Under the pieces are notes generated by a model. The model saw nothing but the letters and a program-made list of their open reading frames with translations, made no database searches and was not told the DNA's origin. This document shows positions 8,151 through 35,812 of a stretch of DNA of 64,000 bases, piece by piece (the first letter of the stretch is position 1; every line of letters begins with the position of its first letter). The stretch comes from Nipponacmea schrenckii (taxonomy: Eukaryota; Mollusca; Gastropoda; Lottiidae): assembly GCA_030562195.1 (NCBI GenBank), contig CM060200.1, positions 23,289,023 through 23,353,022 of the forward strand. The letters are read 5' to 3'. A program made the position numbers and the translations under genes.

Positions 8151-11100
8151 ATAATAATAATAATAATAATAATATTGTTTATTTCCAGTAAATGACGGTC
8201 TTATAGACCAATGTTACAAATATAAATACATTGCAGCAACGATGATGGTATTACATAGATACATACATACTCTTTGGGAGAGGCAGTGTTATCATGAAAT
8301 TCCACTTTCTCTTAGTTTTAAGGCACAATGAACAAATTTAGCAATGCCGACAAGATATGATTCAAACCTCTCACAACAAAAACTTTTGATACATCTATAC
8401 TTGGTATGAATTAATTTTGTCCTAAGCTCTTCAGTAAATGGACAATGGAGCATGAAGTGTTCAATATCCTCAGTACTGTTGAGACAAAGAGGGCAAAGAT
8501 CATTTCTACTCAAGTTTCTTCTGAAAAGATTTGCACTCAAAGGCAGAAGGTTAAGACGAACTCTAACAATATTTCTTTTCTGTGTAAATGTCAACTTGCC
8601 TGAGAGATATAACTCTTGAGTAACACACTGTTTAAAATTTGCATATTCACATAAACTCTCACTGAGGCTGAGTTTAGCAGACCATTCCTGGAAATCTATG
8701 TCTTTCAGTCTTTGTTTAACTAAATACATAAATGCTTTAATGTTTCCTATGCTGTCCATATGCCAGACATAACCTAGACCAATTGAGAATAATAAAAGTC
8801 TTAATTTTGTAGCCCATGTGGTGCGCCCTGCTTCATCCAAATTTTTCAACATTTGAAATACTTGCTTTGGATATCTACTAAGAGACATATTAACAAGTTT
8901 ACTAAAGTACTTAATACATGAGCTAAAATATAGAATACTTAAACTTTGTCGCCCACATTCTCCCCGGGCCCCAACACTGCTGCTTGATTTGTGAATACCT
9001 AAAGCAAATTTACAAAACCCATTATGGACTTTTTCAATTTCTGGACGGTATTGATAACCCCAAATTTGAGCACCATACAATAAAACAGGTTGTATAATGG
9101 CATCAAAAATTTTGAACAAAGTTGCCATACTAGGGTGACCTATTTTGTATACCAATGACCTAATTGGAAGTAGAGCTCTTTCTGCTTTAAGTGACAATTC
9201 TGATATGCATTTCGACCAATTAAGTCTTGATGAGAAACTAAGACCAAGGTAATCATAATATGTCACATTTTCCAACTTAACATTTTCGAAATAGAACTGT
9301 TCCCTTCGTTTTATAATGCCTCCATTTCGAAAAACCACGACCTTAGTCTTATCTTTGTTGACTTTCAGGTTATATTCATTGCAAAATTTTTCTAGAACTT
9401 TAATCTTTTTTTTCAAATCGCCAACAGTGTCTGCAACTAAACTAAGGTCATCTGCGTGCAGTAAAAGCAAAATGTCCTCTACTCTCTGGCATGTGAAATT
9501 CCATTGACATTAGCATTTTTCATCATGTATATTAATTCATTGATATATAGAACAAAAGTGGGCTTAATATACAGCCCTGCCTAACCCCACAACTACAAGA
9601 GAAATACGGTGTGATGCGATTGTTAAGTTTCACACTGGAAGTGACAGATACATGCATTGATTGTAATGTTTTCATCATTTTGCCATTTATATCTTTTGAG
9701 AGCATAGTTCTCATTAATTTTTGCCCGTCAAGGGAATCGAATGCTTTGGAAAGGTCTACAAATAAAGTGTAGAATCTGCCCTTAGTCTTCGAAAGATATT
9801 TCTCCACTAAACCTGATAGAGTGAATATATGGTCTGCTGTAGAATATCCAGTGCGATAGATTTTACTCAGACTATCTAGTAAAGAGATTACCCTATAATT
9901 ATTCAAGTCATTTAATTGACCTTTCTTATGAATTAGGCTTATAAGAGCTTTAGACCATGATTGTGGAAATACTATTAAATAGCTGGGTAAGATAGGGCAA
10001 TAACATGTCAGCTTTATGCAAGAAGTCTACCATAATGCCATCTGGACCCGGAGCTTTACCAGCTTTGGCCTTACACAGACATTGACTTACTTCCTCATTT
10101 GTGATTGGGCAGTTTAGTATATCAATCTCTGTATTATTTGTAGTCTGGGTATCTATTGGCTCATTACTTGATAATGAAGGGATATGAGAATTGAATAAAC
10201 CTTCAAAATATGTTGCCCATTTTTGTGGTGTAATACCACTTCTAAAATTAACCTTTCGGTGACGATTTTGTAGAAGAGTTGACCAGAAAGTGTTTGGATT
10301 TTCAAGATTGTCAAGTAATTTCGAGTAGAGCTTTTGCTGATGATCATGTTTCTTGTAATGGCATAGAGTTTTGAAGCTGTTTCTACATTTGTTAAATGCT
10401 TCCACTAGATTATCATCATAGCAGATGCGTAAGTTATTTAAGGCTTCATACTTTAAACGTTTACTTTGCCGACACTCAAACCATATTGGCTGTTTCCGAA
10501 TTTCAAAATACTTAGATTCATATTTAACTTGTGAAAAATTTGCACAATTTAGAACATATTTCTTTAACAAGTAAAGTGCAGCGTCTATGTTTTTTTGATT
10601 TATGAAGCTATTGAATGCCTGATTAAATTCTACCAAATGATCTTGTAAATTGAAAACATAGATATCTGCCTTTTCCTTATTCCAGTTTAACTTTATGTAA
10701 GGTGCAGTGGTATCTTCTTGGCCATTGTCTTCGAAGTGTTCATTGTTTCTACATTCAAATCTGAAAGCAAGTGGGAGGTGATCTGACTCTGTTCTTGCTT
10801 CGATGTCAAACTTTTTTACATTGCAGAAAAATTCTGAGGAAACAATGAGGTAGTCAACAACAGATGCCCCGTTGTATTGTATTGGATATTGAATATTAAT
10901 TGTTAGTGTCCTTATCTTGTGAGCATCTTGGCACGCTAAAACTATCTGTTATATAATCTGCTCCTTCCAAAGAGGGTAAATGTTTTATTGTATCATCTGC
11001 GAGAAAATCTTTCAAATATGCAGTTCGGCGTTAAAGTCGCTACACAAAGCAATATGTGAGTTGGGATTATCACTGAGTAAGTTGTTCTTCTAATCTGGCA

Positions 11101-18849: not shown

Positions 18850-18857
18850 AATAAGAT

Positions 18858-18937
18858 CACAGGCACCAGATTCTGATAAAAAAAAAATTCGTATATGTAT
18901 TAAGAATAGAAAGGTACCTAAGGCGCCATCTTGTTCT
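18858..18937 (+). repeat. P element left terminal inverted repeat
   Basis: Starts CACAGGCACCAGATTC and includes attcgtatatgtattaagaa and gtacctaaggcgccatc. Complementary to 30012-30115 apart from A/T-run length and the duplicated 12-mer on the right. Confidence 0.9.
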
Positions 18938-19071
18938 AAAAAGTACTGGTAACGGAAGTAGGCAAAGATTACGTCATAGTACGGATTGAATAAATTCCTG
19001 TCCATTGATTGGTCAGACTTATTTGCGAGGTTTCTTCAAAACAAACCCTTTGTTGTGATTTTATCTGAGCG

Positions 19072-20706
19072 ATGTTCTTGACATCTGAGCAGTGTCGTGC
19101 GCTGGAATACGCCGAAAAGGGACACAATTTGGTTATAATAGGTCAGTCTGGAACTGGAAAGAGCTTTTTTTTATTAAAGAATGTGTTAAAAAATTGTCAG
19201 AAAATTGTGGAAAACGTATCGCAATTACCGCCAGCACTGGAATTGCTGCGAAGCAATTTCAGAACGGTACCACTGTTCATCACTGGGCAGGTTTACGTGA
19301 TGGCAGGTACAACCAACACGAACTGTTGAATATACTACAGAAAGAAGAAGGCTGTACCACCTCATCAAGAATTAAAGACACCGATGTCTTATTAATTGAT
19401 GAAATTAGTATGATTAGTATATGAGCAAGTAAGAACAATATTTTCTTATGAACCATATATATAATAGGCACAAAATAAATGCAGGCTTAAATGAAAAATA
19501 ATTCACGATTTCAATTACCAAGATTTGTCATTATCTTAAACAGTTCTATCTAGTGTATTATGTCCAACCTGGATATAAATGCCCCCAGACATTACTTTCG
19601 CTTACATGTACTCTATTTTGTTCAAAGGCAGGTGGCCTATTATAAAATATAGTATATCTAACTTATGAAGTTCTGTCCCACACAGGCCTAGCTAATATGA
19701 AACTTCTGCACTGATCATAAATTTTTGGTTCTGTCAAATTGATTCAATTTAGTATTGTGCTATTTAATTTAAGTATTGTTTCAATCGTATCTTTGCAGCT
19801 TGAGTTTGTATGCAGGAAGATAAGAGAACCAAGTATGATCTTTGGAACCTCCAACTTATTTTAGTGGGAGACTTTTTTCAACTACCTCCCGTTCCAGACA
19901 ACTGAAATTACGACCCAGGAATATATGCGTTCAACTCAGAAATCTGGTCAAAATGCATGACACATAAAATTGAATTCACTCAAGTTCTTCGTCAAGGTGA
20001 CCATGCCTTAATACATGCTATTAATGAGCTAGAAAGAGGACAGCCTTCCTCCGCAACAAACGATTTGATGTCTTCGCTTTCTAGACGGTTACAAGATTGA
20101 GGCACCCCAGTTTATCTATAAGGTACCAATTTCGAAGTGGATTGTTTTAATGCATCTGAGTTAACAAAGTTCCCAGGACATCAAATGGTGTATATGTCTG
20201 AAGATATCGGAAATAATCGAGAGCTCAAAAGAATAATTTCGAAAAAAATTCTTATGCTCAAAGTAAACTGCCCGGTCATTCTCCTTAGAAACATTTCAAA
20301 AACTCTTGTGAATGGACTTATGGGAAAAGTTGTTTTATTAGACGCTAATGGTCCTACCGTACAGTTTGATGACATAGTTATTAGATTACCCAAAATGTCA
20401 TTTACAGTTTATAGTTCTTCTGAACAAAATGTGGTAGCAGAAAGACATCAGTATCCGATTTCTTTAGCGTTTGCTATGACAGTACATAAGTCACAAAGTT
20501 TGACAATACCAACGTTGGTTATTGACTGCAAAAATATTCACCTTGCAGGTCAACTCGGTGTTGCTGTTGGACGTGCTGTCAGTGTTCATGGACTCCGCAT
20601 ACTCAATTACCACCCCTCTTGTTGCAGAAAACACAAACCTGAGGTGTTGGAATACTCTGATAAAGCTTCGCAACTACTTTCCGAAGATCTATCGTGTTGT
20701 AAAAAG
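19072..20706 (+). pseudogene. PIF1-like DNA helicase of the P element (broken)
   Basis: SF1B helicase related to PIF1, which unwinds DNA 5'-3' using ATP. Exon 1 from ATG 19072 encodes MFLTSEQCRALEYAEKGHN, Walker A GQSGTGKS (~19.14 kb), ASTGIAAKQF (motif Ia) and LLIDEISM (Walker B, ~19.39 kb). A likely intron lies between donor ~19429 (CAA|gtaaga) and acceptor 19798 (tttgcag). Exon 2 gives LEFVCRKIREPS, LVGDFFQLPPVP (motif III), RQGDHALI, CPVILLRN, FAMTVHKSQSLT (motif V) and LGVAVGRAVS (motif VI). Breaks: a one-base change in the T run after Walker A, a shift near 19.42 kb, a shift in the 'GLQL'-type region, and stops near 19904 and 20097. It lies inside the P terminal repeats, head-on toward the transposase. 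It may be one gene with the PHD-bearing frame that follows. Confidence 0.85.
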
Positions 20707-20913
20707 GTATGTTACAAATACTGCAGCATTAATGATTAAATATATCACAGATAAGATCATAATATATTGATAATTTCCCTAACATAGACAGTTGTTGGGA
20801 GCTTGGTATTTTCATATTACACATAGTATATATAGGCAGAGATATTTAAAAAACACATTTTTATCACCCAAATTGCCTCTCTGGATATATTATATTTTTT
20901 TATATATTTGTAG

Positions 20914-23014
20914 ATAGCGGATGATACAATTACTGATGTTTCTGGAGAAATGATCTTACATGTAGAATATAGTGATGAGTCCGAATTTGAAGAAGATGTT
21001 GAAAAAAATATTATTCTTTTTGAAACCAAGAAACGTGGTGACTCAGTAGTGATAGGTAACCTTAATATCCAGGTTTCAATACCTGTCAGTAATTCAGGTC
21101 AGAGGGACTGACATGATAAAAAGTGTCTTGTCGTTTGGATGGAGCAATAAACTGAGGCTCTGTGTACTAAAGTATATGCATGCTTAAGATATCCCTGCAG
21201 TTGGAAATCGAAAAATGAGTTGGCTAATGTCACAAAATTGCCCTCATTGTGCACTGTATTAGCCCAAACAAGTGAAAAAAGTTGAACGAAAAATGTCATA
21301 AAACTTTATTTTTTTCAGAAACCTAAGACAGTAGAAGAGCAATATACAGAATCTGATACGATTGAAATATTACAAAGCATTCATGTCAGCAATCCTATTA
21401 GCCCCTCTCAACTGGTATTAAATTCCTGCATTGAAAATCTTCTGAAACATCCATGGAAAGTTCAAACATAATTTACCAAAAAGTCAAAGAATTTCAAGCT
21501 TCACCAATCCCAGTTATTACGACAAAACAATGGACAGAATTTTATAAATCATTCCATGGTTATCTCTCCTCAAGAGAATACAGCAATTTGTTCGAAAATT
21601 TATTCAAACCAAATCCTGTAAACATGTTATTGGCAAGAAGTTTACAGGCACGAATCAGGAAAGATTTTGTGACTGGAACAAACAATAAACTGGAGTCTGA
21701 ATCGACAGTACAAACACCTGTGTCTATAGCAAAGTCTGGTTATGGTAAAATTCGGTATGTGGGTGGACGATCAAAGGTTAAACATCATTATGCAAACTTA
21801 GTGCGAAATGACATTCAATCATCAGGAGTTTTTATGGACCCTAGTTTGCAAATTATGGTGAATTTACTACAATCCCTTACAATTTCTCAAGGAGAGACAA
21901 TAGAAAATACAAAGTATCCTGAAAGTGTTCTTGACACATTAAGAAAACAATATTTTTCATGTGGTTTAACAAACATATCAGATAACACATTTGAATTTTT
22001 CTTGGAAGTAGAGAAAAAACGTTTACCATTTTGTAAAAAGTCTGTGTTAGCGGAACACGGAGAAAAAAACTCTAACCCATATTCATAAAGAGGTTCTTCT
22101 TGACAAATACTTATACAACAGATGGGTAATGCTATTTTCGAAAGTTAATACCGGTACAGTATGTTTTAGAGATAATGACAATGATTGTGATTCTGTAAAT
22201 TTACTTCTAGAAGACATTGTAGATACAAGTGGGGCTATTGTAAATTTATTTGAAAAGGTTGTGATATCTTATCTGAATGTGACAGATGCAGAATATCGAC
22301 GAAAAATGTTGGAAAAACTTGGGAAAACAAAAACAATGGAACATCGTAAACTAGTTTTGTCAAAGAGTGGAAAATCAGTAAATAAGCTTGTACAAATTTC
22401 CATTGAGGATATTAAAACGGATAAATCAATTGGAAAAGAAGCTTCTCACTTACAATTAAAGGGCAGTTTGCTTAGAGACTCAACAAAATTGTCTATATTA
22501 ACTAAACCAGATATTATGCGACTGGGAAAATGCTATGGTTTAAATTTGAATAAATCAAGTAAAGGAACTTTTAGCAAAATATCTGGCAACAGCTGTATTG
22601 AACAGTGATAAGATGACTTATCCAGATGCTCTTAATGAAGGCAATGTAATAACCAGTTCACAGTTGGATACAGAATTCCAGGCCAATCCGGTTGCTGGTC
22701 CCAGTAATGTAAAAGGAACTATTGACAGCACAACAAAAAAAAATAAACACACAGAAAAGAGTATGGGTACGGGTAAAGGTAAAGGTAAAGGAAAGAAGAG
22801 AGAAGGAAAAGAAATGTGGAAGAATATATAGATGAAACGATTTGTATTTTGTGTAAAGAAATGTGGTGTAATGCTAATGAATAACCATGGATTGGATGCA
22901 GTGTTTGTGATGGTTGGTGGCATAAATCATGTGCAGGAATAACAGAAGATGAGTGGGCTGTAGTTTCTCAAGAAGATACAGTATGGCAGTGTCCTAAATG
23001 CAATAGAACTACAG
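20914..23014 (+). pseudogene. Accessory coding region with C-terminal PHD finger
   Basis: Continues in helicase orientation after introns 20707-20913 and 21056-21318, with usable donors and acceptors. An acidic exon (DESEFEEDVEKN) is followed by a long frame starting KPKTVEEQYTESDT. It runs through IPVITTKQWTEFYKSFHG, YGKIRYVGGRSKVKHHYA, FFLEVEKKRLPFCKKS, EYRRKMLEKLGKTKTMEH and LTKPDIMRLGKCYGL into a Gly/Lys-rich linker (GKGKGKGKKREGK, ~22.78 kb). It ends in a C4HC3 zinc finger at 22.84-23.00 kb: CILC, then CSVC, WWHKSC and CPKC, the spacing of a PHD finger. PHD fingers usually read histone tails. Frameshifts near 21.45, 22.06, 22.58 and 22.82 kb and a stop at ~22880, between the first two Cys pairs, break it. 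I do not recognise the central part. Confidence 0.7.
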
Positions 23015-23208
23015 GTATCTACAAACTTATCATATTTCAATTTGGCAGTATGAAACCTCTTAACTTAATGAGGTATGGCAAATTAATCTGAGGAAAAATT
23101 TGCAAAAACCCTTTCAAATTGTTAATAACTTAAAATACCGGTAACAGTTTAATATTAAACAAATAATTATCAAGTTTAACTTATAATTTTAACTCTTTGC
23201 ACAAAGAT

Positions 23209-25020
23209 TTATAATGGAAGAGCACCACTACTGACTGTCCTTCTTCTCCGAGCAGCATTTGCTTTTTTTGAAATTACTCCTTGGCAGAGAGTGATGCTGT
23301 TTGTTGCATAACTGTATTGGAAATAATTGGGATTAGTTCCAGCACCATGGTGCAGACCTCTTTGTTGACTAAAATTATTTTCTATCGCATCACTGTTGAC
23401 AAATAAAGGTGTGACATGGTGTTTTATTTTGAGTGTCACATTAGTTGCTAATTGTCTAAAACCAAGAATTAGAAATCTGAGATCTTCTCTTGTTTCTTGA
23501 GACATTAGTTCTTTTGGTGATTTGGTATCTGTTTCCCAATTAATGAACCATTCATATATAGCTTGCAGCTTCTCCAACCGATAGTCATTTGTATCATATA
23601 GAGGCCTGCGGTCTGAAATATTTGAATAAGATTACTAGTCTGTTGTAGGAAATCAATTACCCCATCACATTGCAAGTCTCCATTGGGTATCCTCGCCTTA
23701 TATTGAGAAAATAAATGGAGCATATCATGATTTAGTACCTCTTCAGCAAGATGATTTCGCATTTTGTCGGCTTGATTTGGATATAAGTGATCATGTGTCA
23801 ATTAATGGTGTATAGATAGTCCATGATGTTTATCCCATTCATATGCAGCCCTGAATGTTCTCCATGTTATATATCTTCCTTGATGTGTAAGTAATCTTGT
23901 GTGATATTTTTCAGAACCACTTTTCAGAATGTTGTTACGTATCTTCTTGATAAAATGGGAAGGGTCAGGAAGAAAAATTATTGGCAGTGAATTAAATGGA
24001 TTAAATGCTGACATATTGTTTTCTTCAGGTGATAGCTGAAAGTGAAATTTAATGAATACTCGGTTATTTGAGGCACCATCAAGACAAGAGTAAATTGTGT
24101 GAAATCCCCAGTTCTCCAAGGCCTTTACAACATCCCAGAATGTACAATAAATTTGAGGACCATTTAGCTGTACAGTTGGATAGTGTGCTACAAGAAAACG
24201 AAAACCAGTTAACCCTTGAAACATATATTGCATTACATGATTGGCTGCAGTATCTTTCCCTTTTGAAGACAACACACCTGCCTCAGGACCCACATCTACA
24301 AATCCTACTAGTGTGGATTCTTTATTTGATTTTGACAATTGGATGTCCTCCTGAATTGCCATCTCATCCAATATTACACCACCATAGAACCCCTCAGGTG
24401 GTATTTTGTCATGGAGGGCTTGCATGTACATCCACTGAAGCATCTGATCATTTATACCCGCTTTCGGTTTAACTGAATTTTTTAAACCAGATAATGTACA
24501 AGTTGATGGCAAAATAATTGCGTTACTATGAAGTATTTGTTCATAAACACGGGGACTTCTGGTCCATATTGACATGGCAAGTTGCATAGTATCATCATCC
24601 CATCTTCTGGATCGGGGTTCAGCAACACTTGAATTAATTATTTGTGATTTTAATAAATTTATTTGAGCCTCTTTTAGATATGGAGCTTTACATTCGATAA
24701 GTTTAATTAGTTGTAATGGTGTTAGAGAATCAGATGTTTGGTCAGAATGTGTTTGGATATGAGCTTCATTATTTGTTGAATTCTGTACCTGTATTTTGTT
24801 GTGAGCATTTACACTAGATTTTTCAGAGCTGCACTTCTTACATGCTAATGTTTTTTTGTATGATGTTATAGGAATAATTTTCTCACACTGTGTTGAATTA
24901 TGCCTGAAGAAGCTAACATTGCGAAATCCGGATTGCATATATTGAGGAGTGCCCTGTATCTTATTTGTTGTAAGTTGATTTGTATTAAATATTTTTATAT
25001 CCATACCAACTCTGTTTTGT
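23209..25020 (-). pseudogene. P/THAP9-type transposase, central and C-terminal part
   Basis: Minus strand, ending at 23209. Recognisable P-superfamily landmarks in order: RRWDDDTMQLAMSIW, YGGVILDEMAIQEDI (first acidic residue), GFVDVG, FRFLVAHYP, IYSCLDGASNNR (second acidic residue), FLPDPSHFIKKIRNN, then DHLYPNQADKMRNHLAEEV. Further on are YRLEKLQAIYEWFINW, REDLRFLILGFRQL and VNSDAIENNFSQQRGLHHG, with NTNPxYxQY-like sequence next to the last acidic residues. The family cuts and pastes DNA with an RNase H-like core that uses GTP. An in-frame TAA at 23799-23801 and a frameshift near 23.60 kb inactivate it. The N-terminal part lies beyond the Penelope insertion at 28795-29068. I do not see a THAP zinc finger. 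Confidence 0.88.
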
Positions 25021-25024
25021 GATA

Positions 25025-26417
25025 ATGGATCCGAGATATAATTGGTTATACCACAGACGCAATGCATATCATCGCCATATTCCATACTATGAGAGACATC
25101 CAGCTCAGTTTCACCAGCATCACTACAGGCCTAATTCTAGATCGAACCCACAACCCTATCATCAAAGGCAGAGACAAGATACTACAAGTCCGATTGTGAA
25201 GATGCTCTTTCAGCTCGTTCAGTGTCTTCACCACGCTTCCATCATTTCAAAACAAGCTAATGGTTCACCAACTCTTGGGTTTACATACAAAATAAATGAT
25301 CTTAACCGGTTTGTAAAACCAGCTCTTAAAACCCACCAGATTTCTTCGGCTATTGAAGAGGTCAATAAATCTTGGGCAATAAATGTGGCATTGGCACTTA
25401 AGAACCATTACGATTCACAGCTGGCCACCAAAAAAATTAAAAACAAATTTTTAATTCACAAAATATTCCGCGGAAGCGATCAATTGGGCTAAAAAGTCAT
25501 ATCGACGACTACAAAAAGAAACATTAGATCATTTTAAAAGAATCATTGCTAATTTGAAATGTGGAAGTGTGCAGGAGGAAATGGATGTTCCTCCAAGCCC
25601 GCCTACCAGCCTGCTTTCTAACAGAATCGTCGCCACACCAAAACGGAAACGTACTCCATCACCGTCACAGTTACCCAGCACCTCAACATTTTTGCCGACA
25701 CCAAACAAGAGACCTAATACAAATACTATTCCAACCATTGTCTCTCCAAATCGATTCTCTCTACTACCATCAACACCACAGAATTCCAGTCAACGTTCGA
25801 ATCCAGAAACTCCACAATCCACAACCAAGACCACATCCCGTCGTCGTTTGAGTTTGGGAAACTCTCCATCTCCTAATAAACCTAGACGCCATGATAACCA
25901 AAAGGATAAAACCAAATGGTCTCTTCCTGCCTTCGTCAAGCCAGTTCTTATCTTAGGATCATCCAACATAAGTAATATTCCTACTGTAAATCCTGATACG
26001 CAAGCTGAATCCTTCCCTGGTGCCCGTGTCCAACACATTAGCCATTTACTATCAAAGATTTCCCCATCTACAGTTCCAAAGAAGATAGTGTTCCACATAG
26101 GTTTGAATAACAGAGACGAGTCAGGTGAATCCATCCACAGGCGGATGATGGACTTGATCAAGTTAGCTAAATCGAAGTTTCCTGCAGCTTCCCTATTTGT
26201 GACTCAAATTCCCTTCTCTAAAAATCTTCAACTTTCAGATCCCCAAGCAGCTACTAATCTTAGAAGATTCAATGACCTGTTATACCATAAACCTTCATCG
26301 GATGCGAAAACCAATCCCCGTTTCAATGGAATGATTGGTGTCATTTCGGACCCCATCCACTGGTTGGCCCCCACTGCCAAAGCTATTTATTCTCAATGGG
26401 TCTCCCATTTAAACTGA
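25025..26417 (+). pseudogene. Penelope-like element ORF1 with SGNH-like domain (one frameshift)
   Basis: Starts ATG 25025 (MDPRYNWLYHRRNAYHRH), His/Tyr/Arg-rich. A one-base shift near 25.48 kb separates this from the following frame, which reads EAINWAKKSYRRLQKETL. Next is a ~110-residue Ser/Pro/Thr-rich linker with basic patches (TPKRKRTPSPS, TSRRRLSL). The C-terminal ~160 residues look like an SGNH hydrolase: PVLILGSSNIS (block I, ~25.95 kb), IVFHIGLNNRDES (block III with Asn, ~26.09 kb) and GVISDPIHWL (block V, Asp and His, ~26.35 kb). The ORF ends at 26417, overlapping the RT ORF by 22 nt in another frame. CR1-type LINEs have an esterase in ORF1, so an RNA-binding or membrane-targeting helper role is possible by analogy. 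Confidence 0.7.
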
Positions 26418-28735
26418 ACGCGGGGGGAAGCAACGTCAAACTAGGCCAGACCATCGTGAATCTGAGCTCGCGCAAACTTTCTCCCCTTGAAGAAAAAGTT
26501 TTAGATAGAGGGTTGACTTTCATCCCTTCATTTAAACCTCTTTCACGTGTACCAATTTTGTCGTCGGTTGAGCATGTCATTAGGACTTTTAAGCTAAATT
26601 ATTTCTTTCGCGAAAAATTAGGTCGAGGAAAACGAACTCCATTTGTAGAAAAGTCTGGCTGGAATCCACCAGACGATGCGATTGACTATAATATTTTGCG
26701 TAAATGCGAAAATCTGTACGAAGAAGTCTCCCATTTACCTCTGGTAAATGAAAAGAAAAACCTTACTAATTTTGAACGCTCCGTTTTGAACACCCTGAAG
26801 AATGATCAGACAATAATCCCAAAGAGTGACAAGAGCAATTGCTGTGTCATTCAAAACCGCGATGACTATATTTTTGAAATAGAATCTCAATTAAATAATG
26901 CAAATCATTACCGCGAACTAGACCAACCAATTTTCATGGAAACTGCTAAACAAATCAATAATATTTTGAAAATTTTGGTACAAAAAGGTTTTTTATCTAA
27001 TTCCCAATATGATTATCTTTGTGCAAAACCGAAAGTCCGTCAACGTCACATTTATACATTACCGAAAATTCATAAAAATCCTGAAACCGAATGGCGCGTT
27101 GCAAATAGAATACCCAAGGGCAGGCCGATTATATCTGACTGTTCCAGCGAATCCTACCAAGTTTCCGAATATATTGACCATTTTCTACTACCATTGGCTT
27201 GCAAACATCCGTCCTACTTAAAAGACACTACCGACTTTATAGAAAAAATAAAAAAATTAGATATTCCAGACAATGCGTTATTTATTTCTTTAGATGTTAC
27301 GAGTATGTACACGAATATCGATAATAAATCCGGTTTAGACGCGGTGCGAAAGGCCTTTTTTAAAAACCCTGATCCTGATCGTCCTGACAGAGAAATTTTA
27401 GATTTATTAGACATATACCTCACGCGAAATGACTTTACTTTCAATGGAAAAATTTATCTTCAAACTTCTGGTACTGCAATGGGAAAACGTTTTGCGCCGA
27501 GTTATGCAAACATCTTTATGGCTGAATGGGAACGCGAAATCTCATCTATTTCACCTTTCAAACCTTTATTCTATGGAAGATTTTTAGACGACATTTTTAT
27601 TATTTGGACAGAGTCATTGGCTAACTTTTGGGAGTATTTCGAAATTCTAAATAATCACCATCCTTCTATAAAACTTACAGCAAATATTTCTGAAAACAGC
27701 ATGAATTTCTTGGATACGACTGTATTCAAAGGACCTAGTTTCAGTCAAACAAAAAAACTTGATATCAAAGTATATTTTAAAGAAACTGACACTCACCAAC
27801 TTTTGTTCAAAACTTCGTTCCATCCGAAGCATACCTTTTCTGGCATAATAAAATCGCAAATTCTGAGATTCAACAGAATTTGCACTAGAAAAACCGACTT
27901 TGATTTGGCTTGCGAACTTGTATTTGAAAAACTGAGGGAACGGGGGTACTCGAAACGTTATTTGCGGAAAATTAAAAACGACACTCTTTTGGCCATTGAG
28001 AAGAAAAGCAACCCCCCTCCTCTACCTAACGGTTTTGGTTCTGTTCCATGTGGAGGTTCTAGGTGTCGTACCTGCGATTATATCCATGTTTCTCATAATT
28101 TTGAAAATAAGAAAAACGGTAAAATTTTCGAATTAACGGGAGTCCTTTCATGTATCGATAAAAACATTATTTACCTAATTTCTTGTAAAAAATGCGACGC
28201 ACAGTATGTTGGCGAAACTCAAAACGCGTTGCGTACTCGTTTAAGCGGTCATCGCTTTGACATTCTTCATAAAAAAGATAGACCAATCGCAAATCATTTT
28301 AACTCAGCCAATCATTCCATTGAAGATCTTTTTGTTATGCCCATTGAAAAAGTTCCAGTCTCTACAACTATCAAACCTAAAACAAAGCGACTACAAAGGG
28401 AGAGCTTCTGGATAGACCAATTAGAAACAGTTGTACCTAACGGCCTAAACATCCAGCATGACAATCAAATTATACCTTTTGTAGCAACCTACAATTCTAC
28501 AGCCAAAAGTGCGGCGGTGATTGTGAAACGGTTTTATAAAGAACTCCAGGATGAATTCCCTAACATATATACCAAACGTTTAGTGACTGCTTACAAAAGG
28601 AATAAAAATCTCAGTAATATCCTTGTACGTGGATACCTCCCTGAAGTAATCGCTTTGAAAAAATTCTCTTTGAAAATTAATCAATTGTGTAAATCTCTCC
28701 AGAAGAAGACAATTTCTTATCAAACTGATGTGTGA
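26396..28735 (+). CDS. Penelope-like reverse transcriptase with GIY-YIG endonuclease
   Basis: A 779-codon uninterrupted frame from ATG 26396. The N-terminus has the Penelope-type NLSSRKLSPLEEKVLDRG. The RT core has HIYTLPKIHKNPE, GRPIISDCSSESY, LDVTSMYTNI (motif A Asp, residue ~299), TSGTAMGKRFAPSYANIF (motif B) and GRFLDDIFIIW (catalytic DD, ~396). A Cys-rich linker (CGGSRCRTCDYI, ~560) leads to the GIY-YIG nuclease: IYLISCKKC (~590), QYVGETQNALRTRLSGHR with the catalytic Arg region, and ERESFW-like QRESFWIDQLE (~668). Such enzymes copy the element's RNA at a nicked target. The frame is intact although ORF1 has one frameshift, so this is a young insertion. The start codon lies inside ORF1's last codons, suggesting reinitiation or a fused ancestral ORF. 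Confidence 0.93.
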   Translation: MGLPFKLNAGGSNVKLGQTIVNLSSRKLSPLEEKVLDRGLTFIPSFKPLSRVPILSSVEHVIRTFKLNYFFREKLGRGKRTPFVEKSGWNPPDDAIDYNILRKCENLYEEVSHLPLVNEKKNLTNFERSVLNTLKNDQTIIPKSDKSNCCVIQNRDDYIFEIESQLNNANHYRELDQPIFMETAKQINNILKILVQKGFLSNSQYDYLCAKPKVRQRHIYTLPKIHKNPETEWRVANRIPKGRPIISDCSSESYQVSEYIDHFLLPLACKHPSYLKDTTDFIEKIKKLDIPDNALFISLDVTSMYTNIDNKSGLDAVRKAFFKNPDPDRPDREILDLLDIYLTRNDFTFNGKIYLQTSGTAMGKRFAPSYANIFMAEWEREISSISPFKPLFYGRFLDDIFIIWTESLANFWEYFEILNNHHPSIKLTANISENSMNFLDTTVFKGPSFSQTKKLDIKVYFKETDTHQLLFKTSFHPKHTFSGIIKSQILRFNRICTRKTDFDLACELVFEKLRERGYSKRYLRKIKNDTLLAIEKKSNPPPLPNGFGSVPCGGSRCRTCDYIHVSHNFENKKNGKIFELTGVLSCIDKNIIYLISCKKCDAQYVGETQNALRTRLSGHRFDILHKKDRPIANHFNSANHSIEDLFVMPIEKVPVSTTIKPKTKRLQRESFWIDQLETVVPNGLNIQHDNQIIPFVATYNSTAKSAAVIVKRFYKELQDEFPNIYTKRLVTAYKRNKNLSNILVRGYLPEVIALKKFSLKINQLCKSLQKKTISYQTDV

Positions 28736-28794
28736 TGTAGTCTCTACTTGTAACCTAGGCCAGTGCTTCTGTAAGAGATTATCTCTTATAACAC

Positions 28795-29068
28795 CCTAAA
28801 CTATAAATTTATCAGGTAGATTATTTATTATTTCTTCAAATTTAATTAGTTTAGAATATTCAGATGTGTGTATCTCTCGTATGCCAGAATAAACTTTTAT
28901 GAATTTGCACCAATCTGTCTGATCTCTTCTTCTGTTTTTTTTTACTGTAGGAAAATCATTCCCTAATTTCTTCAAAACGTTTTTAAATACACTTTTAGTG
29001 GTTACAAAAGAAGCCTCATCTTGTATGTATAGTTCATGTAGGCTGAAATATACAGAAGCAAGAAGCAA
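28795..29068 (-). pseudogene. P transposase, N-terminal fragment
   Basis: A minus-strand frame reading FKNVLKKLGNDFPTVKKN, DQTDWCKFIKVYSGIREI and FEEIINNLPDKFIV up to the Penelope 3' end. It lies on the same strand as the rest of the transposase, on the other side of the nested retroelement, and has the Lys-rich character of a linker after a DNA-binding domain. I assign it by position; its sequence alone would not identify it. No start codon or THAP finger is visible upstream, so a further 5' exon may be lost or unrecognised. Confidence 0.55.
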
Positions 29069-30011
29069 TGTTTATATTAGGTTGAATAGAACATTGCAGA
29101 ATATAAGCTTATCTAGCTTTGGAATATTCCAAATCAAAAATGCAAAAAAATATCATTCCTCTTATATGGTCTATATTTTCTAGATCTATAGGCCTAGGCC
29201 TACTATAATAGATGGTATTTTTGTTTTTAAAAAAACATAATCTGGTGCCTGTGTTAAATATATTCAGGGTTTAATTTAGAATTAATAATATGCTATTCTT
29301 TTGTGCATCAGGAAAATGTCTAAATAATTAGTTTTAAATACAATAGGCCTGACCTAGGCTCAATAGGCCTGACCTAGGCTCAATAGGCTAGCTTAGGCCT
29401 AAATAAAATTTAGAGAGATATTGAAATTAATATTAATTCTTGTAGCCTATTTCTAATGTATATTTTTTAGACAGACACCCGAATTTGGTCCAAAAAAAAA
29501 ATTAATCATTAAATCAGGTGCTTATTATTTTTTTAGTAAACTTAAATCTAAATGACATATTTTTTTTTTTTAATCAGGAATTAATTTTTTTTTAGAAATA
29601 TATTTATATTTTTAAATATAAGCCTGCCTAATAATTATTAGATATCAAATAAGGACATTTACCATGCTAAAGTAGCCTCTTTGGACATCATTATTATTTT
29701 TTTTAATTCTGTGCTTGAATTTCCCGCATTATTTAATACAATATTTATGACCAATCAAACAAAAGCAATTTAAACAACTGCGGAGAATGACGTCATCTTT
29801 GTTTATCTTCCGAACCCCATACTTTTATTTGGAGTAAGAATTAATGTATTTCGATAAAATACAACATTTTATACAGTTGTTATCATGTAAAAGGTTTTTT
29901 TTTAGTTTAAGAAATATTTAACAATACTGTTTGAATGTCAAAGCATGTGAAAAACGGTATGAATTATGAAGATATAACGAGAAACATCGCCGAGGATCAG
30001 CAACTAATGTA
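29069..30011. other. P element right internal region
   Basis: AT-rich, no gene recognised. It contains ATCTGGTGCCTGTG (29240-29253), identical to the outermost 14 bp of the right terminus and in the same orientation. It also has a short tandem repeat of 'caataggcctgacctaggct' at about 29341-29382. Confidence 0.55.
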
Positions 30012-30115
30012 AGAACAAGATGGCGCCTTAGGTACCTTTCTATTCTTAATACATATACGAATTTTTTTTTTTTTTTCTATCAGAATCTGGTTTTTATCAG
30101 AATCTGGTGCCTGTG
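30012..30115 (-). repeat. P element right terminal inverted repeat
   Basis: Contains agaacaagatggcgcc at its inner edge and ends CTGGTGCCTGTG. The 12-mer ATCAGAATCTGG occurs twice in the last 40 bp, making this arm longer than the left one. Confidence 0.9.
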
Positions 30116-30123
30116 AATAAGAT

Positions 30124-33137: not shown

Positions 33138-35812
33138 CAAACAAAGAACTCGATTCCTTTGAATACATTGACTGCACCATAACAAATAAGAACATATTAC
33201 GAACAGTTGTTATTTATCGACCACCTTCAAATTCAGTTTATAGATGAATTCTCTGCCATGTTGGATAATCTCGCTTCATGTAAATTTTCACTACTAATCG
33301 TCGGCGATTTTAACTACCATGTAAAACCCTGCAAACCTAGAATCGTGTAGATTAAGCTCTCTGTTCTATACACATTCTCTCAAGCAACACGTTTACAAGG
33401 AGGTATTCAAGATCTAGTCATTACGAGAAAAGGGCAGCTTTACCCTAACCAACTTCTCATTAGTGACCAGAAATATCTGACCATTTCCAATAACTTTTAA
33501 GCTTGATGTTAAAAAACCTCCACCACTCCGTAAAACAATATTTTACCGGAAGTTCAAGTCTCTGAATATTGAAGAAATTAAACAGAGTATCACCCAATCT
33601 AACATATCCGCTATTGTTGATGGCTCTATAACAGATCCAGATGAACAAGTTCAAATTTTCAATGAGGTGCTTAGTTCTCTGTTAAAAAATAATGCTCCCT
33701 TGAAAACAAAATGGTTGACAGTTAAAGCTGAGACCCAATGGTTCAATGATGATGTGCGCCGAGTCAAAGCTGAACGCACGAAAGCTGAACGTAGGGCCTA
33801 TATGGCGTGGAACTCGTCTCGTCATCCATAGAGATATTTATAATGCTGCAAAATTAAAAGTGGTGCGAACAATCGAAAAAACAAAAAAGGACTTTTACTC
33901 CAATAAAATTGAACTAAGTGACAACAAACAAAGAGATCTCTACAAAATAAAAAATGCCCTTCTTGATCACAATTACAATGTTGCTAGATTACCTACAGAC
34001 GACACCTCAAATCTTGAGGAGAAATTCTCTCAGTTCTACACTAACAGAATTCTGATCAAACGTGAGAACCTGGAGAGATGTTTAGATTCTGTAACTCTTT
34101 ATCTTATCCTTAAGAATGCTATGATCAGAGCCCCGTAGAGTGTTTGAATACTTTCAGACGGTTACTGAAGACTTCATCAAGAATCTTGTGTCTGAATCAA
34201 AACCGAAATCCTGTATCCTGGACCCAATTATCTCGGCGATAGCAAACACAACTTTATGCTCAGGCAAATTTCCCACAATCTATTAAACTGATGTTGTTAC
34301 ACCCTTAATAAAAATGCCATCTTTAGATCCTGAAATCCTTAAAAATTACAGACCGGTCTGTAATCTGAGCTTTGTTTCTAAACTGATAGAAAAATGCATT
34401 TCTTAACAGCTTAAAAACCATTTCCATGCGACCAACCTTCCCGAACCACTTCAGAGTGTATATCGCCAACATCATAAAACTGAAACGCGCTTATATGTGT
34501 TCAAAATGATATTCTGTGTTCCCTTGACATCCGCAGACCAGTGATTCTTGTACTGCTGGACCTGTCCGCAGCTTTTGACACCGTTGACATAGAAATATTG
34601 CTTAATCGATTACAAACTGATTTCAGAGTTTCTGGATCTGCTCTTAATTATTGGACTCATACCTATCTAACCGGAAGCATTCAGTTTTAGTGCACCAATT
34701 AAGATCAGACGAACAGGAACTAGTCTATGGTGTGCCTCAAGGCTCAGTGCTTGGACCCATTCTTTTCTGTATTTATACTTCTCCACTTGCAAAGATAATT
34801 CGGAATATTCAGTGTCACCTCTATGCCGACGACACTCAATTATACCTATCTTTTAAACCAGTCCATGGCTTCGAAATGTGTAAGCGTAGGTTGGAAGCAT
34901 GCATTAACGATATACGGCAGTGGATGGCTGCAAATTTCTTAAAACTAAATGATGAAAAAACTGAATATCTGCTGATCCGGTCCAAAAACTGTGATATTAC
35001 TCAACTACCTGATACTAACATATCTATTGGTTATGTTTCAATGTCACCCTCTAACTCGGCCAGAAATATTGGTGTCATATTTGATGAATTCTTAAACTTT
35101 GAAAACCATGTTAACAACATCTGTAAAACCTGTTACTTGTCGAATATATCGAAAATTCGCTCGTTTCTGTCTGAAGATAGTGTTAAAACATTGGTTAATA
35201 GTTTAGTTACCTCACGTCTGGATAATTGTAATTCACATCTGATTGGTCTCCCAAGTAGTCTTATTGAAAACCTCCAAAAAGTACAAATTTCAGCTACAAG
35301 ATTAATAACCCACACCAAATTTCGGAATCATATAACACCTGTTCTATTCAAATTACACTGGCTACCAATTACATTTAGAATTAAATACATGATACTTCTT
35401 CTAACTTTTAAGTGTATTAATAATATGGCTCCTACTTATTTGTCCTGCCTTTTAGAATTATATGTACCTGCTCGTGCTTTAAGATCTTCCAATGACACAC
35501 ATAAATTAGTAGAAAGGAAAGTAAATTTAGTACACTATGGCGATAGAAGTTTTTATTATCAGGCACCTACACTTTGGAACTCTTTATATTTTAATATTCC
35601 ATCTCTTACATCTTATGATTCTTTTAAAAAAGAATTAAAAACATATCTCTTTAAGGCAGCTTTTGTCGATGTTGTTAAGTTTTAATATTTAATTGATTTT
35701 TAATATTTTTTTCTTTTTGTACTCTTTTATTTATGTATTTGTAAAGTGCACATGAACACTACTGTAGTGGAGGGTAGCACTCTAAATATGTGTTTATTAT
35801 TTATTATTATTA
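33138..35812 (+). pseudogene. LINE-B, endonuclease C-part, RT and 3' end
   Basis: Resumes with ELDSFEYIDCTITNKN, TVVIYRPPSNSVY and IVGDFNYHV (endonuclease). A linker and RT follow: NYRPVCNLSFVSKLIEKC (~34.35 kb), [13 protein letters not shown] (~34.57 kb), VYGVPQGSVLGPILF (~34.73 kb) and HLYADDTQLYLSF (catalytic DD, ~34.83 kb). Then come FLKLNDEKTEYLLI, FKLHWLPITFRIKYM and TLWNSL to the stop at 35685. The last 344 codons are open; upstream parts have several shifts and stops. The 3' UTR ends in a two-tier hairpin (35745-35781) and a TTATT tail. L2/CR1-type by its 3' stem and RT motifs. Confidence 0.85.

Follow-up and report, generated by a model that had tools for sequence, protein, structure and literature searches.

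Whether a transposon of the P superfamily can carry a helicase gene of its own is the question raised by one locus in the gastropod Nipponacmea schrenckii. The stretch analysed here, called the window, comprises 64,000 nucleotides (C9:23289023-23353022) of a 399-Mb genome, and contains a transposon with its ends at window positions 18858 and 30115. From left to right, the transposon holds a PIF1 helicase on the forward strand, a stretch with a C4HC3 PHD finger at its end, on the same strand, and a transposase on the reverse strand, the genes being convergent. Our analysis shows a P-superfamily transposon with two genes, both belonging to one mobile unit, of which this locus is a dead copy. The copy is dead by the stops and frame breaks in its helicase gene and by a retroelement that splits its transposase gene.

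The element and its copies in the genome

The two inverted-repeat arms, at 18878-18937 and at 30012-30071, match over 60 nt with 100% complementarity, and the match continues outward to the ends. The left terminal inverted repeat (18858-18937, +) is found both by the inverted-repeat search and by a genome search with the left end, and the right one (30012-30115, -) by the inverted-repeat search, with an end-like motif present twice in tandem. Comparison of the flanks gives the same 8 bp, AATAAGAT, at 18850-18857 and at 30116-30123, a perfect target-site duplication. The inverted termini and the duplication had both been claimed in an earlier reading of the sequence (the original prediction) and are confirmed here, the termini also by 40 genome matches with the left end, beyond chance. 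Inverted repeats with a duplication of about 8 bp are expected of the P superfamily, and of the 16 copies in which both ends were matched, 15 have perfect 8-bp duplications and one has a single mismatch (end motif with at most two substitutions, outermost pair taken for each copy, leaving out L037 and L038, which are repeat loci, as well as the inner end-like pairings, all with at least three mismatches). As for the extent, the whole span of 18858-30115 had been taken as the element; its ends stand, while its length does not. The span contains a nested Penelope-like retroelement of 3.9 kb, and the element proper is therefore about 7.7 kb, the size of a copy free of the retroelement, namely the outer of two copies at C9:28.12 Mb (555 + 7106 bp).

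Based on the left end, a search of the same genome gives at least 40 matches, a lower bound with 40 of 99 candidates scored, comprising 27 left ends and 13 right ends (terminal repeat only). Among the copies, the outer one at C9:28.12 Mb has both ends, its own 8-bp duplication ATTTTAAC, and the helicase, PHD finger and transposase between them in identical order. Both of its genes are about 97-98% identical to those of the window, showing similar divergence. On the whole, the helicase-PHD block is present in at least four copies (among the best 40 of 1233 candidates): the window, the outer and inner copies at C9:28.12 Mb, and one on contig C866 that is interrupted by the contig end. The block lies at the identical place in copies sited differently, and no long inverted repeats bound it, the longest being 31 nt at 71%. 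In addition, matches to the homologous protein P0027 beyond residue 420, the part called here the KIRYVGG domain, are confined, among the best 50 of 159 candidates, to the window and to the copies at C9:28.12 Mb.

The left ends tell of the same association. In 26 of the 27 (the exception is L035) the sequence runs past element position 300 and hence contains the helicase ATG at position 215; two pairs on C3 (L012/L013 and L028/L029) look like one place assembled twice, and collapsing them gives 24 of 25. The helicase/PHD block is missing from 24 of the 27 left ends (present in L009, L021 and L030). Copies lacking this region had been named in the original prediction as evidence against it, and literally they exist, yet their pattern is that of internal deletions: the right-hand junction 10749 is common to 20 of the 27 left ends, and in 19 of these it is joined to left position 379; of the 24 block-less ends, 23 extend past position 300, thus keeping at least about 30 helicase codons. 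The junction 379/10749 marks one deletion derivative that has spread; 12 measured copies of it have lengths of 866-912 bp. Because a second copy holds all the genes and the small derivatives keep the helicase start, the helicase gene belongs to the element and moves with the transposase as one unit, as had been supposed.

Several further observations concern these copies. Matches on C3 are often paired about 29.63 Mb apart, as if two haplotypes were joined in one contig. At C9:28.12 Mb (L040/L041) the helicase gene of the outer copy contains the inner one, which is inverted and near-identical; about 500 N mark an assembly gap there, and sequence is missing at the left junction. Over 204 helicase codons the two do not differ, and over 198 codons of the domain that follows there are 2 differences. 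Another locus, L042, is a 5.1-kb deletion derivative with two transposase stretches and a near-perfect duplication (AAGAGAAT/AAAAGAAT). The terminus sequence is repeated internally at 29239-29254, about 860 bp inside the right end, likewise in the outer C9:28.12 Mb copy, and is possibly a subterminal transposase site.

The nested retroelement (24899-28799, +), recognised by the Pfam scan and by comparison with the outer copy, encodes a reverse transcriptase and a GIY-YIG domain and is not part of the transposon. It lies inside the transposase gene, where it replaces about 305 bp found in the outer copy rather than being a plain insertion. Its upstream frame (25455-26417), for which the Pfam scan gives no match, overlaps the frame of the reverse transcriptase and GIY-YIG (26291-28735). 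Elsewhere in the window, the long frames at 8292-10948 (-) and 34648-35685 (+) resemble, by eye, reverse transcriptases of retrotransposons without long terminal repeats.

The transposase and the helicase-PHD gene

The transposase occupies 23209-24898 (-) from the RNase H core to the C-terminus, as delimited by PF21787, homologs and fold, and its N-terminal part lies to the right of the retroelement, approximately at 28800-29068 (-). The Pfam scan places PF21787 at 23802-25130 (-) with E=3.1e-12, and the outer copy has an open transposase frame of 755 amino acids, whose start codon is not placed. A profile built from relatives of the transposase matches the Drosophila P transposase 6p5a with E=6.2e-6. 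When the structure model of P0002 (mean predicted local distance difference test, pLDDT, 71) is compared by Foldseek, 6pe2 and 6p5a are found at E about 1e-19, the best being 6pe2 (E=1.3e-19, TMt 0.75), and ISCth4 and Hermes follow with E no better than 2e-5. By sequence profile and modelled fold, the transposase is thus assigned to the P superfamily. The transposase sequence A2 contains the motifs DEM, LDGAS, DPSH and NSD.IEN, which were equated with the residues of DDE and D(2)H by eye, in part against passages of PMC4168063.

The original name, a THAP9/P-type transposase, holds in its second half for the catalytic part, and fails in its first. No THAP domain (PF05485) is found in the 755-residue frame of the outer copy or in 10 homologs, where an upstream exon could be missed, and a THAP motif scan of the outer and window elements yields one overlapping C2CH-spaced stretch only, not THAP-like by eye. 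A THAP9-type transposase is thereby rejected, and the catalytic core would place the protein in a THAP-less branch of the P superfamily, with no THAP detectable. The GTP-binding insertion domain PF21788 appears below threshold in P0007 alone among the 10 homologs scanned; it is present in the precomputed annotation of P0011, P0024 and P0025, and the alignment of this region with 6p5a is weak.

The helicase gene is read as four exons and a PHD finger, all on the forward strand. Exon 1 (19072-19424, limits inferred) starts with the ATG at 19072, which is element position 215, and has the Walker A GTGKS and the DEIS motif by eye; its frame is broken in the window copy. PF05970 matches at 19089-19424 with E=3.4e-8 and covers the exon-1 part. 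Exon 2 (19796-20709, limits likewise inferred) contains GDFFQLPPV, Pif1_2B, TVHKSQS and VAVGRA, with Pif1_2B at 20122-20739 marginally below the Pfam cut-off; it has stops in the window and is a single open frame of 339 amino acids in the inner C9:28.12 Mb copy. With the PF05970 core and the 2B domain, and with PF05970 at E=1.9e-36 in the homolog P0027, the protein has what defines the PIF1 family, and the claim of a PIF1-like helicase convergent to a P-type transposase is borne out. Exon 3 (20914-21097, limits inferred from the frame and homologs) encodes an acidic linker, and exon 4 (21319-22840), frame-shifted in the window copy, the KIRYVGG domain, predicted to be all-helical, and a basic GKGKGKK linker. 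The PHD finger (22843-23001) forms the C-terminal end. Its C4HC3 zinc ligands are seen in the spacing of the window sequence, which has one in-frame stop, and PF00628 reaches E=7.3e-5 in the outer copy, marginally below the cut-off. A SAP-like motif was suspected by eye between the KIRYVGG domain and the PHD finger and is rejected, as the three pieces scanned match SAP nowhere at E<=10. A short repeat at 21084-21259 in an intron of this gene has at least 36 further matches at 75-82% identity, among the best 40 of 1233 candidates.

Save for the stops and frame breaks of the window copy, the exons of the helicase, the middle stretch and the PHD finger run on consecutively. The helicase, the KIRYVGG region and the PHD finger therefore appear, by their sequence, to form one spliced gene for a single protein of about 1050 amino acids. 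All three parts had been seen originally, and they stand; their description as two separate cargo genes gives way to one protein, as in the homolog P0026. This homolog (938 amino acids) joins the C-terminal half of the helicase, the KIRYVGG domain and the PHD finger in one open protein. Among the others, P0027 (914 amino acids, from Saccostrea cucullata) has the helicase and the KIRYVGG domain without a PHD finger, P0028 has the same two domains, P0030 (from Mytilus edulis, under the name PIF1) combines a portion of the helicase with the KIRYVGG domain, and P0029 has the KIRYVGG domain and the PHD finger, with no helicase in the predicted protein. All animal homologs with a species name are from bivalves. 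PF00628 reaches E=4.3e-6 in P0029 and E=0.0014, below the cut-off, in P0026.

The structure model of P0026 has a mean pLDDT of 49, with block means of 25-87 over residues 340-780, which are all helices. In this model, Foldseek finds no trusted match to the KIRYVGG domain among solved structures. PIF1 structures are matched at best with E=5e-4 and TMt 0.16 on a poorly predicted region, which carries little weight, and MLL-type PHD fingers with E of 0.2-0.9 only, a weak support. Judged from its sequence, the PHD finger is likely a chromatin binder, with a putative role in targeting the helicase protein to chromatin.

A second family and known systems

It is of interest to see how general the pairing of the two genes is. 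The genome has 131 matches to PF21787 and at least 43 to P0002 (61 of 93 candidates scored), which combine into 109 P-like transposase clusters, and four of them have a PIF1 match within 10 kb. Under random placement the mean count is 0.43 and the maximum 4 (2000 trials), so that the count by itself is suggestive, not overwhelming. The four clusters are the window, C9:28.12 Mb, C9:15.30 Mb and C1:12.07 Mb. As the last two are about 98% identical and represent a second family, there are two independent families among the four. The transposase of the second family has 28-30% identity with that of the window and, in its main stretches, about 30-40% with P0002 and P0003. Over residues 31-140, the helicase of this family shares 50-51% identity with P0027, as compared with 31-36% for the long PIF1 frames elsewhere. 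By these sequences, the pairing of helicase and transposase is a mark of one branch, not of the whole superfamily. Outside the genome, no relative is found in prokaryote genome contigs with query A2 or A3, nor in viral contigs (IMG/VR) with A2; query A1 gives 22 loci in IMG/VR, matching only residues 1-266, the helicase part.

PIF1-like sequence is not rare in this genome. A further short match (42%) lies at C8:42.59 Mb, and frames of about 2500 amino acids, which we take to be probably Helitron proteins, are common. Helitrons encode one long Rep-helicase protein and are not known to have inverted ends or target duplications. The present element shares with them a PIF1-family helicase, and differs in that the helicase protein has about 1050 amino acids, a domain of its own and a PHD finger, and lies within a transposon with terminal inverted repeats. 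The identity as a Helitron is rejected by the inverted ends and the duplication, and by a helicase protein unlike the frames of about 2500 amino acids; no Rep domain is found in the transposon pieces scanned. Academ transposons are DNA transposons reported to have a helicase besides a nuclease, with another transposase superfamily and another helicase class than here.

The Drosophila P element, as described in passages of PMC7776569, is similar to the present one in inverted ends, 8-bp duplications, the sequence and fold of its DDE transposase, and internally deleted derivatives. It differs in its size of 2.9 kb and its N-terminal THAP domain, as against about 7.7 kb, a second gene and no THAP detected here. 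The zebrafish THAP9 transposon and Galileo also have a P-type transposase and deleted derivatives, with duplications of 8 bp in the former, as here, and of 7 or 8 bp in the latter; they differ by a THAP-bearing transposase, and no helicase gene is mentioned for them in passages of PMC7776569 and PMC4168063. The same passages describe elements of the P superfamily by a THAP-bearing transposase, with no helicase gene mentioned, and the main text of PMC7776569 has the word helicase twice, both for the host Bloom's helicase. A passage of PMC9646362 merely lists PIF1 among transposon-related domains. Among the papers listed by searches of one open-access library, judged by titles and the openings of abstracts and with Repbase not covered, none reports a P-superfamily element with a helicase gene.

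A proposed role for the helicase

What the helicase does for the element is a separate question. As the best explanation overall, and one that we consider fairly probable, we propose a two-gene P-superfamily transposon whose helicase-PHD protein aids copy-back at the donor gap. The transposase would cut and paste the element via the P pathway, the PHD finger would hold the helicase protein on chromatin, and the helicase would promote the long DNA synthesis that fills the donor excision gap from a sister or homologous copy. Such filling would restore the element at the donor site and increase its copy number, and interrupted filling may leave internally deleted copies, for example the derivatives of about 890 bp. 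The role in re-synthesis after excision is proposed by analogy: in passages of PMC7776569, P excision leaves a double-strand break that is mended by homologous or end-joining routes, and in those of PMC8951532, efficient repair of the P-element excision gap in Drosophila requires PIF1 when POL32 is absent. It is doubtful in our view that an old branch of the P superfamily, lacking THAP, needs both a transposase and an element-encoded PIF1-PHD helicase replicating the element during or right after transposition; if true, this would be a P-type family with a dedicated, chromatin-anchored copying helicase, controlling its own copy number.

A number of findings weigh against the copy-back proposal or the reading of the locus behind it. 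Internal deletions also arise in P elements without a helicase gene, and the deletion derivatives are therefore no proof of a helicase role. No copy was found to have an intact helicase gene: the frames of the outer C9:28.12 Mb copy are broken as well, and its nested junction lacks about 147 bp. The PHD finger is present in only two of the five homologs (P0026 and P0029), of which P0029 is without the helicase, and some homologs may be incomplete. The second family has its genes head-to-head and in broken copies, and its ends were looked for at its loci and not found. With a nearby PIF1 in 4 of the 109 clusters, the superfamily overall does not need one. A fragment of helicase exon 1 (57%) is located at C3:23.41 Mb, and again in the C3 double of this locus, without a transposase match in the vicinity. 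Finally, changes within the genome are too few for selection to be assessed: the pooled ratio of nonsynonymous to synonymous changes (pN/pS) is 0.78 for the helicase with 6 synonymous changes and 0.42 for the transposase with 9, with values above 1 in single stretches of the helicase gene.

The rival that survives best, though we think it unlikely, is that the helicase-PHD gene was captured by a P-type transposon and is a passenger without part in its movement. It would fit the 105 of 109 P-like transposase clusters without a PIF1 match within 10 kb, and the fact that selection is not demonstrable within the genome. The confinement of KIRYVGG matches to copies of the element, among the best 50 of 159 candidates, leaves no host source in view. 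Long retention is suggested by the presence of the pair in a second family, whose transposase is only 28-30% identical, and relatives covering most of the protein or a part of it exist in bivalves (P0027 and P0030) and as P0026, P0028 and P0029. We give still less credit to replicative transposition, in which the helicase would unwind or copy the element during transposition rather than in later gap repair. Helicases of the PIF1 family do belong to the rolling-circle proteins of Helitrons, but the 8-bp duplications and the DDE P-type core fit cut-and-paste, and no HUH nuclease or polymerase is recognised in the six transposon pieces scanned, where the reverse transcriptase is that of the retroelement. 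That the helicase-PHD protein mainly counters host silencing, by displacing chromatin or RNA-DNA structures and not by repair, may be suggested by the C-terminal PHD finger and is very improbable. The weakest is the chance nesting of a helicase-PHD element in a P element, also raised originally as a nested element with its own termini, which the abundance of long, probably Helitron, PIF1 frames might favour and which is rejected on the fixed place of the block at different sites, its lack of long inverted repeats of its own, the presence of the helicase start in all but one of the 27 left ends, the similar divergence of both genes and the KIRYVGG distribution among the best 50 of 159 candidates.

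Returning to the copy-back proposal, its meaning lies in the copy number of the element. Copy-back after P excision raises the number of P copies. The excision gap can be filled by host homologous recombination (passages of PMC7776569), and PIF1 is tied to such repair (passages of PMC8951532). A P-type element with its own PIF1 may have taken over the step that decides its copy number, and the helicase could help an element of 7-8 kb to keep full-length copies. The element offers a direct route to test whether a transposon can control copy-back after excision, and an organisation with the transposase only is not the rule for the whole P superfamily.

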